A stretch of 64,000 nt of DNA from Natronorubrum texcoconense (GTDB lineage Archaea > Halobacteriota > Halobacteria > Halobacteriales > Natrialbaceae): positions 806,001 to 870,000 of the forward strand of contig NZ_FNFE01000001.1 of the NCBI RefSeq assembly GCF_900100335.1. Reading direction: 5' to 3'. Under the pieces are notes generated by a model that searched no databases, was not told the origin of the DNA, and saw nothing but the letters and a program-made list of their open reading frames with translations. Below are positions 35,448 through 42,343 of this stretch, one piece after another; within the stretch, counting starts at the first letter, position 1; each line of letters begins with the position of its first letter. The position numbers and the translations under genes were made by a program.

Positions 35448-36473
35448 ATGTCCTTCGAGGACACGGACGAGCCGTCGGCTACCGCAGAAGGGAACAAATC
35501 CGGGACCGAACCGGTGGATTCGCCTCTCGGGCCCGACCTCGAGACCGCCCGGACCGAACAGTTATCGACTCCAAGCGACGCCTTCCAGGCGCTCGGCAAC
35601 GAGATCCGGATGGGAATTCTCGAGACGATGCTCGAGCGAACCGACGGCGACGAGCCGTCGCGAGCCACGTTCTCGAACCTGTTCGACGCCTCCGAGGTAG
35701 ACACGTCGGCCGGCTTCGCCTATCACCTCGAGCAGCTCGTCGGTCCGTATCTCCGAAAGGACGCGGCGGACGAACGCGAGGGGGCCGGTGAACGCACGGC
35801 GGGCTACGAACTCACCTACGCCGGACTGCAGATCGCCCGGGCGATCGCAACCGGTACCTACACCCACCGGGTCGACCACCCGCCGATCGCGCTCGAGGAG
35901 GCGTGTCCGTTCTGCGAGCGCGACGCGCTCGAGGCCGAGTCGACCGACAACGTCGTGACCGTGGCTTGTGCCGACTGCGAGCGCCGACTGGTTCAACTCG
36001 GCTTCCCGCCGTCGGGACTCGAGGCCCACGGACGAGAGTTTCCCGAGGCGTTCGACCGCCACCACCGTCACCGGCTCGCGCTCATGCGCGACGGCGTCTG
36101 CCCCGAGTGTGCCGGCGCCGTCGACACCCGACTCGAAACGCCATCGGCTGCGGTCGCCGACGAGTTGCCATCCGAGCACGCGGATCACGTCCAGGCCGTC
36201 CTCGAGTGTTCCACCTGCGGCACCGAAGCGCGCTGTCCCGTCACGCTGGCGCTGCTCGAACAGCCGGCGGTCGTCTCGTTCTACCACGAGCACGACCGGA
36301 ACGTCGGCGACCGCCCCATCTGGAACGTCGGCCACGAGTGGGCCGAAACGGTGCTCTCGGAGGATCCGCTCGCTGTTCGGGTCGTCGTCGAACTCGAGGA
36401 TGCGGTACTCCCGCTGTACGTCGACGACGGGCTCGACGTGGTCGACGTCCAGCGGGCGACAGTCGAGGGATAA
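35448..36473 (+). CDS. ArsR-like winged-helix regulator with zinc ribbons
   Basis: The 341-residue protein has an acidic N-terminal tail (residues 1-40) and a winged helix (about 42-130, DAFQALGNEIRMGILETMLE, FAYHLEQLVGPYLRK). Two CxxC-type zinc ribbons follow (CPFCERDALEA with CADCERR, CPECAGA with CSTCGTEARC). The layout matches a common haloarchaeal regulator family (ArsR-like, DUF7351 type). The target is unknown. It is convergent with the proteasome alpha gene. Confidence 0.83.
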   Translation: MSFEDTDEPSATAEGNKSGTEPVDSPLGPDLETARTEQLSTPSDAFQALGNEIRMGILETMLERTDGDEPSRATFSNLFDASEVDTSAGFAYHLEQLVGPYLRKDAADEREGAGERTAGYELTYAGLQIARAIATGTYTHRVDHPPIALEEACPFCERDALEAESTDNVVTVACADCERRLVQLGFPPSGLEAHGREFPEAFDRHHRHRLALMRDGVCPECAGAVDTRLETPSAAVADELPSEHADHVQAVLECSTCGTEARCPVTLALLEQPAVVSFYHEHDRNVGDRPIWNVGHEWAETVLSEDPLAVRVVVELEDAVLPLYVDDGLDVVDVQRATVEG

Positions 36474-36495: not shown

Positions 36496-37248
36496 CTAGG
36501 ACTCGAGTTCAGCCAGTACCGCCGCGATCTCGTCGGCGGACAGCCGCTCGACCGTCGCCGCGTCCGAATCGATCGTCCACACGTCGAGGCTTTCCGGCTC
36601 GAGGTCGCTCTCCGCCGTCGTCGCGAGCGCCTCGAGTGCCGTGGCTATTCCCCGTTGCGTCTCTCCCGGGAGGTCGCCCTCGAGTCGGTCCTCGAAGAAT
36701 CTCCTGATCCCGTCGGTGCCGTTCCCGATCGAGACGGCCCGCCAGCCGTAGGGGGTGCCGCTGGGATCGACTTCGAAGAGCCGCGGCTGCCCGACGCCCT
36801 CGCCCGGTCGGCCGGGATCGACGCCCCCGACGAGCAGCGCCGCACCGAACGGACGCGAGCCGCCCGTCTGGGTGTGCTCCTGAACGTGATCCGCGAGGTG
36901 GGTCGCGAGCGATTCCACGCCGACTGGCTCGCCGTATCGTACCCGGTGGTGCTGGGCGACCCGCCGCGCGACGTCGACGAGCTGTCGCGCGTCGGCCGCG
37001 TGGCCCGCGGACGCGATCGCGAGGTGGTCGTCGACCTCGTGGATCTTCTCGATCGTGTCCGCCTCGAGCAGCGGCGAGCGAACGCGCTTTCGCGCCGCGA
37101 GGACGACGCCGTCGTCGGTCACGACGCCGACGCTCGGCGAGCCGCGTTCGACGGCTTCGCGAGCGTACTCGACCTGGTAGAGCCGGCCGTCTGGCGAGAA
37201 GATCGTATTACCGCGGTCGTAGGCCTGCTGTGGTGCACTCGAGTCCAT
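36496..37248 (-). CDS. 20S proteasome alpha-type subunit (paralogue)
   Basis: The 250-residue protein has the alpha-subunit N-terminus (YDRGNTIFSPDGRLYQVEYA) that forms the gate and contacts the regulatory ATPase, followed by the Ntn-hydrolase fold without a catalytic Thr. It begins one base after the stop of the beta gene, so the two are cotranscribed and coupled. Haloarchaea usually keep psmA and psmC elsewhere; this beta-alpha pair looks like an extra, divergent set. The canonical copies cannot be checked here. It should form alpha rings in the cytoplasm. Confidence 0.9.
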   Translation of the reverse strand: MDSSAPQQAYDRGNTIFSPDGRLYQVEYAREAVERGSPSVGVVTDDGVVLAARKRVRSPLLEADTIEKIHEVDDHLAIASAGHAADARQLVDVARRVAQHHRVRYGEPVGVESLATHLADHVQEHTQTGGSRPFGAALLVGGVDPGRPGEGVGQPRLFEVDPSGTPYGWRAVSIGNGTDGIRRFFEDRLEGDLPGETQRGIATALEALATTAESDLEPESLDVWTIDSDAATVERLSADEIAAVLAELES

Positions 37249-37249
37249 C

Positions 37250-38047
37250 TCAGCGCACCTCCTCGTCGGACTCCTCGATCGCGTTCGGATCGTTCGACCC
37301 GACGTTTCCAGCCCCGTCGCCCGTCGACGCGACGCCGTCGGCGACGCTCCCGAACTGCTCGAGGTCGAGCGAGTCGGCGGTAATCGTCGCGATCGTCATC
37401 CCATCGCCGCTGGCGGTGTCGCGTTCGGTGGCACTCTGCACGGCGATCGCAACGACGCGACGGAGGTCCGCAAGCGGGAGGTCGGGCTCGTAGCCCCCCT
37501 CGAGCGAGCCGTAGGCGAGTTGCATGCCGCTGCCGCTGGCCGCGTACGCGGTGTCCATGACGCCACCGCCGCCGCCGATCTGGTAGACCGCCGGGCCGTC
37601 GTCGACGCCGGCGAGCACGAGGTCGAGGATTCGGTAGGGACCCCGTCGAACGAGATCGCCGGCCACGGTCGCGGCGGTTTCGACCGACGCGGCGTCGCCG
37701 TGGCGCAACTCGTAGCCTCGGAGTTCGGCCCGGAGGTGGCGAACGAACGACTGTGCGTCGCTGACGCTGCCCGAGAAGGCGACGGCCGTTCGGTCGGCGA
37801 CGGGTTCGATCTTCCGTGCCGACTGATTCGTCACGAACTTTCCACCGAGGCTCGCCCGCCTGTCCGCCGCGAGGACGACGCCGTCCGTACCGACGGCACC
37901 GACCGTCGTGGTTCCCGTCGTGATCTCGTTCGGTAGGGTGTGCGGGTCGGTCCCCCCGTCGTCTCGGTCGGATCGTCTCCCGTTGCCGCTCGGCTGGATG
38001 CCGCTCGACCCGAGGAAACTCGTCTTGACGTTCATTGGTGATTGCAT
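37250..38047 (-). CDS. 20S proteasome beta-type subunit with propeptide (paralogue)
   Basis: The 265-residue protein has a propeptide of about 45 residues ending in G, then the mature N-terminus TTTVGAVG with the catalytic Thr. Asp17 (AADRRAS), a Lys (SARKIEP, one residue later than the usual position 33), the GSGMQ loop and ERDTASGDG are present, so it should be active. It is the first gene of the pair with the alpha subunit. The C-terminal tail is an extra Asp/Ser/Asn-rich stretch. A second ATG at 38035 could also be used. A perfect palindrome lies 36 bases upstream. Confidence 0.9.
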   Translation of the reverse strand: MQSPMNVKTSFLGSSGIQPSGNGRRSDRDDGGTDPHTLPNEITTGTTTVGAVGTDGVVLAADRRASLGGKFVTNQSARKIEPVADRTAVAFSGSVSDAQSFVRHLRAELRGYELRHGDAASVETAATVAGDLVRRGPYRILDLVLAGVDDGPAVYQIGGGGGVMDTAYAASGSGMQLAYGSLEGGYEPDLPLADLRRVVAIAVQSATERDTASGDGMTIATITADSLDLEQFGSVADGVASTGDGAGNVGSNDPNAIEESDEEVR

Positions 38048-38082
38048 CAGTAACGAAGAGGAGTCCCGACGGAATAGATGTT

Positions 38083-38102
38083 AGCTAAAATATATTTTAG
38101 CT
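38083..38102. promoter_or_regulatory. Perfect 20-bp palindrome at the proteasome promoter
   Basis: AGCTAAAATATATTTTAGCT is a perfect palindrome whose centre is the TATA-like core (ATATAT), 36-55 bases upstream of the beta-subunit start. A protein bound here would block TBP/TFB or be recruited beside them. No regulator gene that would obviously bind it is next door. Some strictly symmetric AT-rich TATA regions occur by chance, but 20 perfect bases are unlikely in this GC-rich genome. Confidence 0.65.
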
Positions 38103-38218
38103 GCGAGGGTGTACGAACTCGTCTCGAGCGTCGAACGGAATCAACAGCGCACGAACGACGGCAACCGAACACCGTACGCGCTCGACAACTCGGGAGTAAA
38201 TCCGCGTTACGACGCCGG

Positions 38219-38962
38219 CTAGAGGTCCATCCCGCCGTTGACGTCGATCACTTCGCCCGTCACGTAACTCGAGTCCTCGCTGGCGAGGAAGCGAACGACG
38301 GCGGCGATGTCCTCGACTTCCGCCAGCCGCTCGAGCGGAATGCCCGAGATGATTCGCTCGAGGACGTGATCCGGAACGCTCTTGAGCATATCAGTCGCGG
38401 TGAAGCCGGGCGCGACGCAGTTGGCCGTCGACCCGCCTTTGGCGAGTTCGAGGGCGATGGTGCGGGTGAAGCCGAACATCCCACTTTTGGCGGCGGCGTA
38501 GTTGGCCTGTCCGAAGTTGCCCTGTTTGCCGACGACGCTCGAGATGTTGACCAGTCTCCCCTCGTCGGCGTTCCAAATGTCGTCGTAGAACTCCTGGGTA
38601 CAGTTGAACATTCCGCCGAGGTTGACGTCCATGACTCGATCCCACTCCTCGCGGGTCATCTCGGTGAACTGTTCGTCGGCCGTGATCCCGGCGTTGTTGA
38701 CCAAGACGTCGGCCGGGCCGAACGCGTCGTGACAGACTTCACGCATGTGTACGACCTCCTCACGGTCGGCGACGTCGGCCCGTGCGGTGACGGCGCTCCC
38801 ACCCGCCGATTCGATGGCGTCGACCGCCTCGAGCGCCGATTCCTTCGACGATCGGTAGTTGATCACGACGTTTGCACCCTCCGCGCCGAGGTACTCCGCG
38901 ATACCGCGTCCGATCCCGCGCGCCGAGCCGGTGATAACACAGGTTCGCCCATCCATAGACAT
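38219..38962 (-). CDS. phaB: Acetoacetyl-CoA/beta-ketoacyl reductase (SDR), PhaB/FabG type
   Basis: The 247-residue short-chain dehydrogenase has the NAD(P) motif TGSARGIGRGIAEYLG, NNAG (VLVNNAGITADEQ), catalytic Ser (NISSVVGKQGNFGQ), and YAAAK with Tyr and Lys. It reduces acetoacetyl-CoA to 3-hydroxybutyryl-CoA for PHA; FabG-like activity cannot be excluded. It lies after the phaRPEC operon and has its own TATA-like element (TTATTTATC, about 38985-38993 on the minus strand), so it may be separately transcribed. MSMDG at 38962 is the preferred start; MDG at 38956 is also possible. Confidence 0.88.
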   Translation of the reverse strand: MSMDGRTCVITGSARGIGRGIAEYLGAEGANVVINYRSSKESALEAVDAIESAGGSAVTARADVADREEVVHMREVCHDAFGPADVLVNNAGITADEQFTEMTREEWDRVMDVNLGGMFNCTQEFYDDIWNADEGRLVNISSVVGKQGNFGQANYAAAKSGMFGFTRTIALELAKGGSTANCVAPGFTATDMLKSVPDHVLERIISGIPLERLAEVEDIAAVVRFLASEDSSYVTGEVIDVNGGMDL

Positions 38963-39105
38963 GGTACACCCGTTCAACGTCCGGCGATAAATAACAACAT
39001 GTTGGGTATCAGGAGATACAGCGACGAGAGGAAGTGACGACACACACGCGAGGGATGGTTCGATAGCACGGTGCGGTCACGCAAACCGTCGGCTATTACC
39101 GTATG

Positions 39106-40680
39106 CTACCGGTTCTGGGCCTGCTCGATCCAGTCTTCGATTCGGCTGGGCGAGATACCGGTTTCGGTGGCCAACTCCGCGGTGTCGGCATCGGCCAACT
39201 GATCGAAGGTTTCGATACCGGCTTCGGTGAGATCGTCCGCGTACGCCTGCCCGACGCCGCTGAGATCGGTCAGATCGTCGGTCTCGGACTCGATTTCGGA
39301 GGCGGCGTCCTCGCCGGCGACCTCCTCGACGACGTCTTCGTCGACGGCCATCTCGCCCGGCTCTGCGGGCGCTTCCTGAACGTCGTCTTCACCGCGCGCG
39401 GCGACTTCCGCGTCGGTTCGATCGGTCGTCTCCGCGTCGATGCCGGCCGATTCGGTCTCGACACCGGCGTCGGTTTCGACCGCCGCGCCGCCGTCCGTCA
39501 GATCCGCAGGACCGGATTCGTCTCCGGCGACGTCCTCGGCGAGTGCGGCGTCCTTTTCCTCGGGCTCCGGGGTCTCCGGTTCGGCCTCGATATCCGTTCC
39601 GTTCGAGCGCGCCTCGAACCACTCGCTGACCTGCGGCCAGAGTTCGTCGTGGCTTCGCGAGGAGACGGACATCCCGATGTGGCCCGTCGCGAACTCGAGG
39701 ATCTCGGTGTCCTCGGAACTGACGACGTCGTTGAACGGTTTCGACGCCTCCGGTGGGATGAGGTGGTCGTACTCCGCGACGATCTGGAGGACGGGCATGT
39801 CGATCTTCGTGAGGTCGACGTGTTCGCCGTTCAGGTAGAGCTCGTTCTCGTAGAGCTTGTTCTCCTGGTAGATGTCACGGATGAACTCCTCGTAGGCCTT
39901 GCCGGCGACGTCGATCCCCTCGTCGAGCCAGCGCTCCATGCGGGCGAAGTTCTCGACGAAGTCCTCGTCTTCCATGTTGTCGTAGAAGCGGACGTACTTC
40001 GTCATGTTGTTCGCGACAGGATCCATCAGCGCGAAGCCGACGTCGAGGAATTCGGCGGGAACGTTGTCGAAGGTGTCGGTGACTGTCTCGGGGTCGTAGT
40101 AATCGTCGGCGCCCCAGAGCTCGAGTACGCCGCCGTCGCCGGCGAAGCAGAGGCCGGCGGCCATCAGCGCGAGGTTTTTGACCTTCTCGGGGTAGAGCGC
40201 GGCGTACATGGCCGACTTCGTGCCACCCATACAGTAGCCGAGGATGTTGATCGAGTCCTGGCCGGAGCGCTCGCGGACCACGTCGACGCAGTTGTCGATG
40301 TAGCGGTTGACGTAGTCGTCGAGTCCGAGCGTGCGGTCGAGCCTGGAGGGCTCGCCCCAGTCGATCAGGTAGACGTCGAAGCCGGACTCGAGCAGCGTCT
40401 GGACGACCGAGCGGTCGGGCTGGAGGTCGAGGATGTACGGTTTGTTGATCAGCGCGTACGTGACGAGGATCGGCACGTCGTGTTGCTCCTCCGTCATCGG
40501 CTCGTAGTGGAGGAGTTTGAGCTTGTTCTCCTCGTAGACGACCTCACTCGGCGTCTGGCCGACCTCGACGTTCTCGAGCGTTTCGGTCCGATCGGGTGTG
40601 ACTTTGCTCTTGTCGGCCAGATCGGCGGCCGCCTCCCAGGTCTGGCGCTGCATGTCCATGACGGATGTGAACGGGTTCAT
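39106..40680 (-). CDS. phaC: PHA synthase subunit PhaC with acidic tail and helix-hairpin-helix end
   Basis: The protein of about 524 residues polymerises 3-hydroxyacyl-CoA on the granule surface. The catalytic triad is visible: Cys150 in GYCMGG, Asp305 in AEYDHLIP and His334 in ATGHIGMS. The catalytic part ends near residue 358. An acidic low-complexity linker (about 360-465) follows, then a 55-residue segment ([20 protein letters not shown]) with a helix-hairpin-helix-like pattern. Bacterial class III PhaC lacks this tail. The start overlaps the phaE stop; ATG at 40680 or 40683 are both possible. Confidence 0.93.
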
Positions 40681-41225
40681 CATTCCTCCTCGAGATGGTC
40701 CAGAACGCGGTCGAGTTTCCCCTCGACGGCGTGCTGGCGGCGTTCGAGTTCGACGAGGCGGTCGCCGACTTCGACGACGTCGTCTCTGGTCGCGAAACCG
40801 AGCTGGCTGAGCGTCTCCTGTGAGGCCTCGTCTGCCTGTTGCTGGAGTTCGAGGATGTCGCCGACGGTCTCGCCGGTCATTTTCGCGAAGGCGGTCGTCG
40901 ACATGACGTCCTTGAACGCCTCGTTGGCCGTGTTGAGCCAAATGTCACGGAACTCCTCCATGTCGACGTCCTCGCCCTCCACGCTGTCGTTCATCCGCTC
41001 GACCATCTGCTGGGAGGCGTTCATCCACGTTTCGTAGGCCCGCGCGTAGCCCTCGACGCCCTCGGAGATCTCGTTCTCGTCGGTGGCGTCGCCGACGGCC
41101 TCGGACCAGCTCTCGACGAACTGGGCCTGGGCTTCCATGTTCTCCTCGATCGCGTCCATAAACTGTTCGTTCCACTGTTCGACGACTGCGTTCCAGTTCT
41201 GGTCCTGGGGCTGTGAATCTGTCAT
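40680..41225 (-). CDS. phaE: PHA synthase subunit PhaE
   Basis: The 181-residue mainly helical protein is the noncatalytic partner of class III PhaC. It starts [20 protein letters not shown] and ends in a coiled-coil-like segment ([20 protein letters not shown]). Haloarchaeal PhaE proteins are short like this one. Its stop overlaps the start of phaC, so the two are co-translated and probably form a complex. Order in the operon is phaR, phaP, phaE, phaC. Confidence 0.9.
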
Positions 41226-41277
41226 TGTGCTAAAATTGGGGGTGCGGCGCTGAAAAGGCTGCGCCTGATGCTGCGGT

Positions 41278-41763
41278 CTACGCCGAGACGTCGAACTCTT
41301 CGGCGGCTTCCTCGACGTTGTCGGCGACGGACGTCACGTTCGCTTCGACCTGTTCGTGGGCCTCGAGTGCGGCGTCGAACGAGCTGTCGACGACTTCGGA
41401 GTAGTTGGCGGCGAACTCGTCGTAGGCGGCTTCGGACTCGTCGATGGCCTCGACGACGGCCTCGAGCGACTGGTGCTGTGCGTCGGTTGCGGAGTCGAAG
41501 CCTTCGTCGACGAGTTCGCGGAGGTCGTCGAACTCGGCGGCCTGCTCGGGCATGGAGGCCTCGAGGGCGTCGAAGTAGGCGTGGACGGCGCCCTTGGTCA
41601 GTTCGGCGTTGGATTCGAACATCGCGCCGGAGCTCTCGACGGCGTCGCCGAAGGCGCTGATCGAGGACTTCTGGGCCTCGAGGGCGTCGTGGGTGAGGTT
41701 CTGGGACTGTTCGAGTGCGGTGCGCTGTGCGTCGAAGACGGCGGTGAATGGGTTCTGAGTCAT
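41278..41763 (-). CDS. phaP: Phasin PhaP, granule coat protein
   Basis: The 161-residue all-helical acidic protein begins MTQNPFTAVFDAQRTALEQS, typical of haloarchaeal phasins that coat PHA granules and control their size. Its start overlaps the stop of phaR by 4 bases (ATGA), so it is co-translated with its likely regulator. A gap of 52 bases separates it from phaE. Length matches known haloarchaeal PhaP proteins. Confidence 0.9.
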   Translation of the reverse strand: MTQNPFTAVFDAQRTALEQSQNLTHDALEAQKSSISAFGDAVESSGAMFESNAELTKGAVHAYFDALEASMPEQAAEFDDLRELVDEGFDSATDAQHQSLEAVVEAIDESEAAYDEFAANYSEVVDSSFDAALEAHEQVEANVTSVADNVEEAAEEFDVSA

Positions 41764-42080
41764 GATTGATCTTCTCGGTTTCGCTTGACGGGTACGACGA
41801 TCGTCTGGACGATATCGCCCTCTTCGATGTCGAGGGCTTCCCGTTCCGGGCCGGGAATGCTGATCCGACCGCCGCTCTGGACGCGAGCTTTGAACGTCGC
41901 CGTTCCCATGTTCATCGGGCCGAAGCTGGAACCGGTATCGAACGGGTTCGAGCCGCTGGCCTGCATCATCTTCTTCATCATCTCCTGCTGGGATTCGGCA
42001 ACCTGCTCGCCTGCCTCCTGCATCTGTTCGGTGAACATCGCAGGCGGGAACCAGAGCGATCGGTCGGAGTCGTCCGTCAT
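41760..42080 (-). CDS. phaR: AbrB-type PHA regulator PhaR
   Basis: The 106-residue protein has a helical Met/Gln-rich N-terminal part (residues 14-50) and a C-terminal AbrB/SpoVT swapped-hairpin domain (FKARVQSGGRISIPGPEREA). In Haloferax mediterranei an AbrB-type PhaR upstream of phaP binds granules and represses the phaRP genes. Same gene order here supports the same job. It heads the phaR-phaP-phaE-phaC operon. ATG 42080 is used; an upstream TTG would add one residue. Confidence 0.88.
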   Translation of the reverse strand: MTDDSDRSLWFPPAMFTEQMQEAGEQVAESQQEMMKKMMQASGSNPFDTGSSFGPMNMGTATFKARVQSGGRISIPGPEREALDIEEGDIVQTIVVPVKRNREDQS

Positions 42081-42123
42081 CAACAGAACGTACGGGCTCG
42101 GACCTGATAAGAGTTTCCACTAG

Positions 42124-42146
42124 ATACCATCTAATACCATCCAATG
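42124..42146. promoter_or_regulatory. Repeated ATACCAT/ATGGTAT half-sites upstream of phaR
   Basis: Two ATACCAT copies are spaced 10 bases apart, and the second makes an inverted repeat ACCAT-CCA-ATGGT with a third half-site. They lie just upstream of the BRE/TATA-like GGAAACTCTTATC of phaR (minus strand, about 42097-42119). The helical-turn spacing suggests an operator or activator site for the PHA operon, or for divergent phaJ. Confidence 0.45.
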
Positions 42147-42343
42147 GTTCGGAGCGTATCGGACGTGCTCTCGCGGTCTTCAGACGGGCGACGAGTCGGC
42201 GATGCCGATCGAACGAGGGTACGGGAATCACCCGATCGAGCGAGTCGGGCGAACGAAAATAGCTAATAATCGTGTACAATACGGTTAAAATCGTCCAGGT
42301 CAGCCAAAGAAGTCATAACCACCACACACCTACCGGCCCGTAG

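Follow-up and report, generated by a model that had tools for sequence, protein, structure and literature searches.

The window, as we call the whole 64-kb stretch of Natronorubrum texcoconense DNA analyzed here, encodes on its minus strand a second 20S proteasome beta subunit (beta2) and, directly after it, a second alpha subunit (alpha2). A perfect palindrome lies upstream of the pair, and a gene for a candidate regulator, overlooked in the original prediction, is convergent to it. The features are as follows.

35448-36473, plus strand: convergent regulator candidate, 341 aa, with an N-terminal winged helix (DUF7347) and a C-terminal DUF7351 (PF24038, PF24042, presence at 51 of 52 loci, AlphaFold2)
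36496-37248, minus strand: alpha2, second 20S proteasome alpha subunit, 250 aa (NF003075, TIGR03633, PF10584, alignment)
37250-38047, minus strand: beta2, second 20S proteasome beta subunit, 265 aa (PF00227, TIGR03634, invariant catalytic residues, separate clade)
38073-38078 (approximately), minus strand: probable TATA box, TCTATT here, some 27 nt ahead of the start codon; relatives have an A/T block at constant spacing
38079-38084, minus strand: CTAACA, probable BRE as judged by its position, adjoining the palindrome core on its downstream side (identity 0.83 across the 52 loci)
38083-38102, no strand assigned: putative operator, a perfect palindrome of 20 bp, AGCTAAAATATATTTTAGCT (core identity 0.956 across the 52 loci)
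38085-38100, no strand assigned: 16-bp palindrome core CTAAAATATATTTTAG, unique in the genome

A polyhydroxyalkanoate (PHA) gene cluster comprising phaC-like, phaE-like and reductase genes lies further upstream, at 38219-42279 of the window; the C-terminus of the phaC-like protein is a helix-hairpin-helix domain.

The beta2-alpha2 pair and the resident proteasome

A single base separates the beta2 and alpha2 ORFs, as originally predicted for these coupled genes, and at nearly all loci the spacing between beta and alpha ranges from -4 to +2 nt. Beta2 scored 146.6 bits against the Pfam Proteasome domain (PF00227; cut-off, 22.4) and 177 bits against TIGR03634, the NCBIfam equivalog model of canonical PsmB, which has a cut-off of 224. 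By these scores, beta2 is a divergent paralog and not a PsmB equivalog. A propeptide of about 45 aa precedes Thr1 (T46), and alignment bore out the claim of intact catalytic residues: T46, D62, R64, K79, S173, D210 and S213 are the equivalents of Thr1, Asp17, Arg19, Lys33, Ser129, Asp166 and Ser169, and are invariant in 36 relatives. Alpha2 exceeded the cut-offs of its N-terminal signature (PF10584; 49.5 bits, cut-off 27.7) and of the subfamily model (NF003075; 295.4 bits, cut-off 219), and scored 278.1 bits against TIGR03633, the equivalog model of canonical PsmA (cut-off, 287.35). Judged by these models, both subunits fall under the equivalog cut-offs for PsmA and PsmB, yet are clear family members. 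Alpha2 retains the gate motif YDR and the HbYX-pocket lysine (K68) in the alignment. In other archaea, this pocket lysine of the alpha subunit takes the HbYX tail of PAN, and the window's genome has two PAN-like ATPase ORFs. The product of the pair would be an active threonine protease that is still able to dock the PAN ATPase.

Five proteasome-family proteins are encoded in the genome. Besides the pair, these are canonical psmA (C4:174k), next to ORFs that we take to be SBDS-like and RNase P-like, canonical psmB (C4:323k) and a lone third beta (C3:14k). Because these three genes are present elsewhere, the pair is an addition to the resident proteasome, in support of the predicted paralogous second core-particle operon, for which a check for psm genes elsewhere had been proposed. 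The third beta (G000:C3:14k; L005:1450-2133) sits on a very long branch and has no palindrome. An alpha-then-beta paralogous arrangement, likewise free of the palindrome, was observed in several genomes of the window's family (L215-L218 and L222, plus L026, L029, L048 and L050); it is a second kind of duplicated proteasome operon.

Conservation and uniqueness of the palindrome

The predicted perfect 20-bp palindrome is located at 38083-38102, and its end is 35 nt from the beta2 ATG, not the 36 bases given previously. It is AT-rich and gapless, and no perfect palindrome in the window is longer; those ranking next measure 16 bp. No second match with up to three mismatches was found in the window, and none of 100 shuffles gave any. 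In the 4.64-Mb genome, the 16-bp core occurs once at up to two mismatches, on which ground we rejected a wider regulon.

The core, with at most one mismatch, was searched in 392 genomes of the order, and the reversed pattern served as a control. Core carriers numbered 81, nearly always with a single copy, and the reversed pattern was found in nine. Loci were then inspected at 57 scan places and at three further places found via the protein. All 37 exact copies inspected, which span seven families, lie directly upstream of beta2, as do 12 of the 20 one-mismatch copies; the three additional beta2-alpha2 pairs found via the protein have a palindrome with two or three mismatches. The eight one-mismatch copies not followed by beta2 resemble background, given that the reversed control was found in 9/392 genomes. 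Across 52 operon loci, the mean pairwise identity of the core was 0.956 versus 0.28-0.44 in the flanks, and the core stays nearly constant while beta2 proteins diverge to about 40% identity. Conservation of the palindrome in relatives, which had been set as a check, was thus confirmed.

A 22-bp extended motif was also searched in about 85,000 prokaryote species, a scan that shares some genomes with that of the order and is not independent of it. It was found at 32 places, 28 of them haloarchaeal and all before beta2, and four in low-GC bacteria without beta2. These four bacterial records, together with two low-GC viral contigs, carry the motif without a proteasome gene and were judged to be chance matches. 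A second conserved stretch, approximately GGTTCGTACGCCCCCG, lies upstream of the palindrome at 38103-38125 of the window. It is confined to one branch of the window's family, and similar stretches are present at L097, L099-L105, L110, L146, L149 and L150.

The linked winged-helix gene and inheritance of the module

To find genes associated with the operon, all neighbours were compared; besides the subunits, the regulator gene was the sole neighbour kept, at 51 of the 52 operon loci. The candidate scored 75.4 bits against PF24038 and 163.3 bits against PF24042, so that both Pfam domains are present, and its DUF7351 carries four conserved C-x-x-C pairs. A Foldseek search with the confident AlphaFold2 model (mean pLDDT, 85.8) yielded weak winged-helix matches of the MarR type, the best being a MepR-DNA complex (E 0.019), and nothing convincing for DUF7351; a sequence search found no solved structure of a relative. 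At the operon loci, promoters of the regulator gene lack the palindrome, and autoregulation was rejected for this reason.

Among 80 relatives surveyed, with the window's own genome counted among ten genus members, the beta-then-alpha pair was present in 23. With kinship ignored, the palindrome accompanied the pair in 20 of these 23 genomes versus 0 of the 57 others (Fisher p 5e-16), and a regulator ortholog was found at the operon in 22/23 versus 0/57 (Fisher p 8e-19). Eight of the 80 relatives were outside the 392-genome scan; the palindrome was searched for separately in these eight and gave no match. Within the genus, two of the ten members (G000 and G009) have all the parts, and the other eight lack the pair, the palindrome and the regulator ortholog alike.

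Paralogous DUF7347-DUF7351 proteins are numerous in haloarchaea and make up a large family, with up to about a dozen per genome; examples in G000 are at C7:231k, C2:40k, C6:195k and C10:255k, and others occur in other genomes. Each paralog may have its own target. In the 80 genomes, paralogs of the regulator with at most 41% identity are common, and the operon-linked regulators form one clade (support 100/100). The recognition helix reads A-G-F-(A/S)-Y-H-L in the operon regulators versus A-Q-F-N-Y-H-L in most paralogs; some positions of this helix vary (at position 89, Q in L110, K in L146 and R in L115), while the operator hardly varies. At six loci of family f12 (L115, L132, L138, L139, L140 and L152), the regulator consists of the winged helix only, at 118-135 aa, and still lies beside the palindrome and the same operon. 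This form is a natural minimal version, in which the constants are palindrome, winged helix and proteasome.

Taken together, co-inheritance and the recognition helix suggest that the regulator binds the palindrome sequence-specifically. Alternatively, the palindrome could be a dedicated operator bound by an unlinked transcription factor, with the neighbour regulating, or being kept for, something else; the absence of the palindrome from the regulator's own promoter leaves room for this explanation. We nevertheless regard it as improbable, since no other neighbour is kept at 51/52 loci, the regulator's clade is missing from all 57 genomes without the pair, and parallel transfer of the unlinked factor would be needed on every occasion.

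The original prediction had also connected the operon with the PHA genes next door. A link of the proteasome operon to PHA metabolism would accord with the phaC and reductase genes found upstream of the pair here, as also at eight related loci. However, the PHA synthase adjoins only 9 of the 52 operon loci, and these nine belong to a single branch of one family; the other 43 have no phaC nearby, and the beta gene has its own promoter. We dropped the link on the basis of the 9/52 count, and consider it very unlikely.

In the beta tree, 51 operon betas fall on one side of a single branch (84/97), apart from the canonical betas of the same genomes. A single alpha2 clade was not rejected (AU p 0.44, in an alpha tree from which duplicate rows were left out). 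In the beta tree and in the regulator tree alike, several carriers from the window's own family cluster with family f4 carriers (L112, L113, L114 and L147), which fits transfer of the module as a unit. At four loci of family f5 (L133, L134, L136 and L137), the palindrome, beta2 and regulator are present without an adjacent alpha. Because these genomes hold other proteasome genes elsewhere, their beta2 may work with resident alpha subunits.

Promoter geometry, mode of control and known systems

The palindrome had been predicted to overlap the TATA region. Instead, a conserved TATA-like block lies just downstream of it, at about 38073-38078, and the palindrome abuts the likely BRE. Palindrome and A/T block align without gaps across the 52 loci, with four A/T at offset 23 in 88%, and the center of the A/T block is 25.5-29.5 nt before the start codon in 44/52 loci; the intervening CTAACA block has a mean pairwise identity of 0.83. 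In Haloferax volcanii, 72% of protein-coding transcripts are leaderless (PMC4983044), and archaeal TATA boxes are found at about -26/-27 (PMC4158304), so that the A/T block is probably the TATA box and CTAACA the BRE. The earlier view of a regulated operon gains support from the conserved site, which suits specific control, and is corrected as regards placement of the TATA box inside the palindrome.

This geometry also bears on whether the palindrome is simply an unusually strong core promoter, an extended BRE/TATA read by TFB/TBP without a specific regulator. Its AT-richness and its fixed spacing from the adjoining TATA-like block would agree with such a role. However, other promoters should carry a basal element too, whereas each genome has the core only once; an asymmetric BRE/TATA needs no 16-bp dyad, and a separate TATA-like block is found downstream at leaderless distance. 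This explanation is accordingly rather remote.

We consider it likely that the locus specifies an accessory, horizontally transferable second 20S core particle controlled by the neighbouring regulator. Beta2 and alpha2 would be co-translated from a single, probably leaderless mRNA. The DUF7347-DUF7351 winged-helix protein would bind, as a dimer, to the palindrome just upstream of BRE/TATA and would control the beta2-alpha2 promoter alone; its zinc-ribbon domain is probably the signal-sensing part. The two subunits may assemble into alpha2-beta2 particles or into mixed particles with resident subunits. Weighing against this reading are the variable recognition-helix positions beside a near-constant operator, the lack of the palindrome at the regulator's promoter and the f5 loci without an adjacent alpha. 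As for the sign of control, the same module could operate under repression, with the regulator covering the BRE and blocking TFB until a signal removes it. This alternative is plausible, if less favored: taken at its full 20 bp, the palindrome extends over the first bases of CTAACA, and in Pyrococcus furiosus a palindrome at BRE/TATA is the site from which TrmB represses malE (PMC4158304). On the other hand, the whole of the core is upstream of BRE/TATA, from which it keeps a rigid distance, as in archaeal activators such as GvpE (PMC4390858). Because of this site position, which by analogy is that of an archaeal activator, activation via TFB/TBP recruitment, as by GvpE, appears somewhat likelier than repression.

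GvpE acts on haloarchaeal gas-vesicle genes via a 20-nt two-armed element next to the BRE, and the close spacing is essential (PMC4390858). The operon resembles that system in having a 20-nt two-armed site adjoining a BRE, here assigned by position, a local regulator and a presumed dimer. Unlike GvpE, which resembles a leucine zipper, the candidate combines a winged helix and a zinc-ribbon domain, and its palindrome is gapless; at most, the regulator may work like GvpE, and it would not be a member of the GvpE-type system. TrmB-family proteins are likewise winged-helix proteins acting on palindromes near BRE/TATA, and the position of the site tracks the sign of control, activated promoters having the site upstream of BRE/TATA and repressed promoters having it downstream (PMC4158304). 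The candidate differs from them in belonging to another sequence family and in having a single target promoter rather than a sugar regulon.

Alternative core-particle composition is already known in H. volcanii. According to the available part of PMC2910475, its 20S subtypes draw on alpha1, alpha2/PsmC and beta, alongside PAN-A and PAN-B, and the amounts of alpha2 and PAN-B protein increase in stationary phase; that part describes no promoter mechanism for the subunits. Both haloarchaea thus have alternative core-particle subunits, but H. volcanii combines one beta with an extra alpha, whereas here an extra beta and alpha share one operon with its own operator and a linked regulator. No such operon appears in the available part of a survey of new proteasome homologs (PMC8665760). 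Our literature search, which covered only a minor share of subscription papers, found no published description of the operon, operator or regulator family, no paper naming DUF7347 or DUF7351 and no dedicated promoter switch for archaeal proteasomes; we regard the novelty of operon, operator and regulator as moderate.

The vertebrate immunoproteasome has inducible alternative catalytic subunits. The likeness, which lies in the alternative catalytic subunits, is an analogy only; the control is unrelated, and any mixing of subunits is hypothetical here. More speculatively, the module might be a mobile, self-contained archaeal counterpart, in which a zinc-ribbon sensor turns on an alternative core particle through one private promoter under redox or protein-damage stress and the whole is passed between haloarchaeal families as a unit; we put this forward as a tentative idea.

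The locus presents a single-target system, with one operator, one neighbouring regulator and one operon across seven families, and offers the uncharacterised DUF7347-DUF7351 family its first candidate target. Its natural absences and its minimal, winged-helix-only version make it directly testable why archaea keep alternative core particles and how they switch between them.
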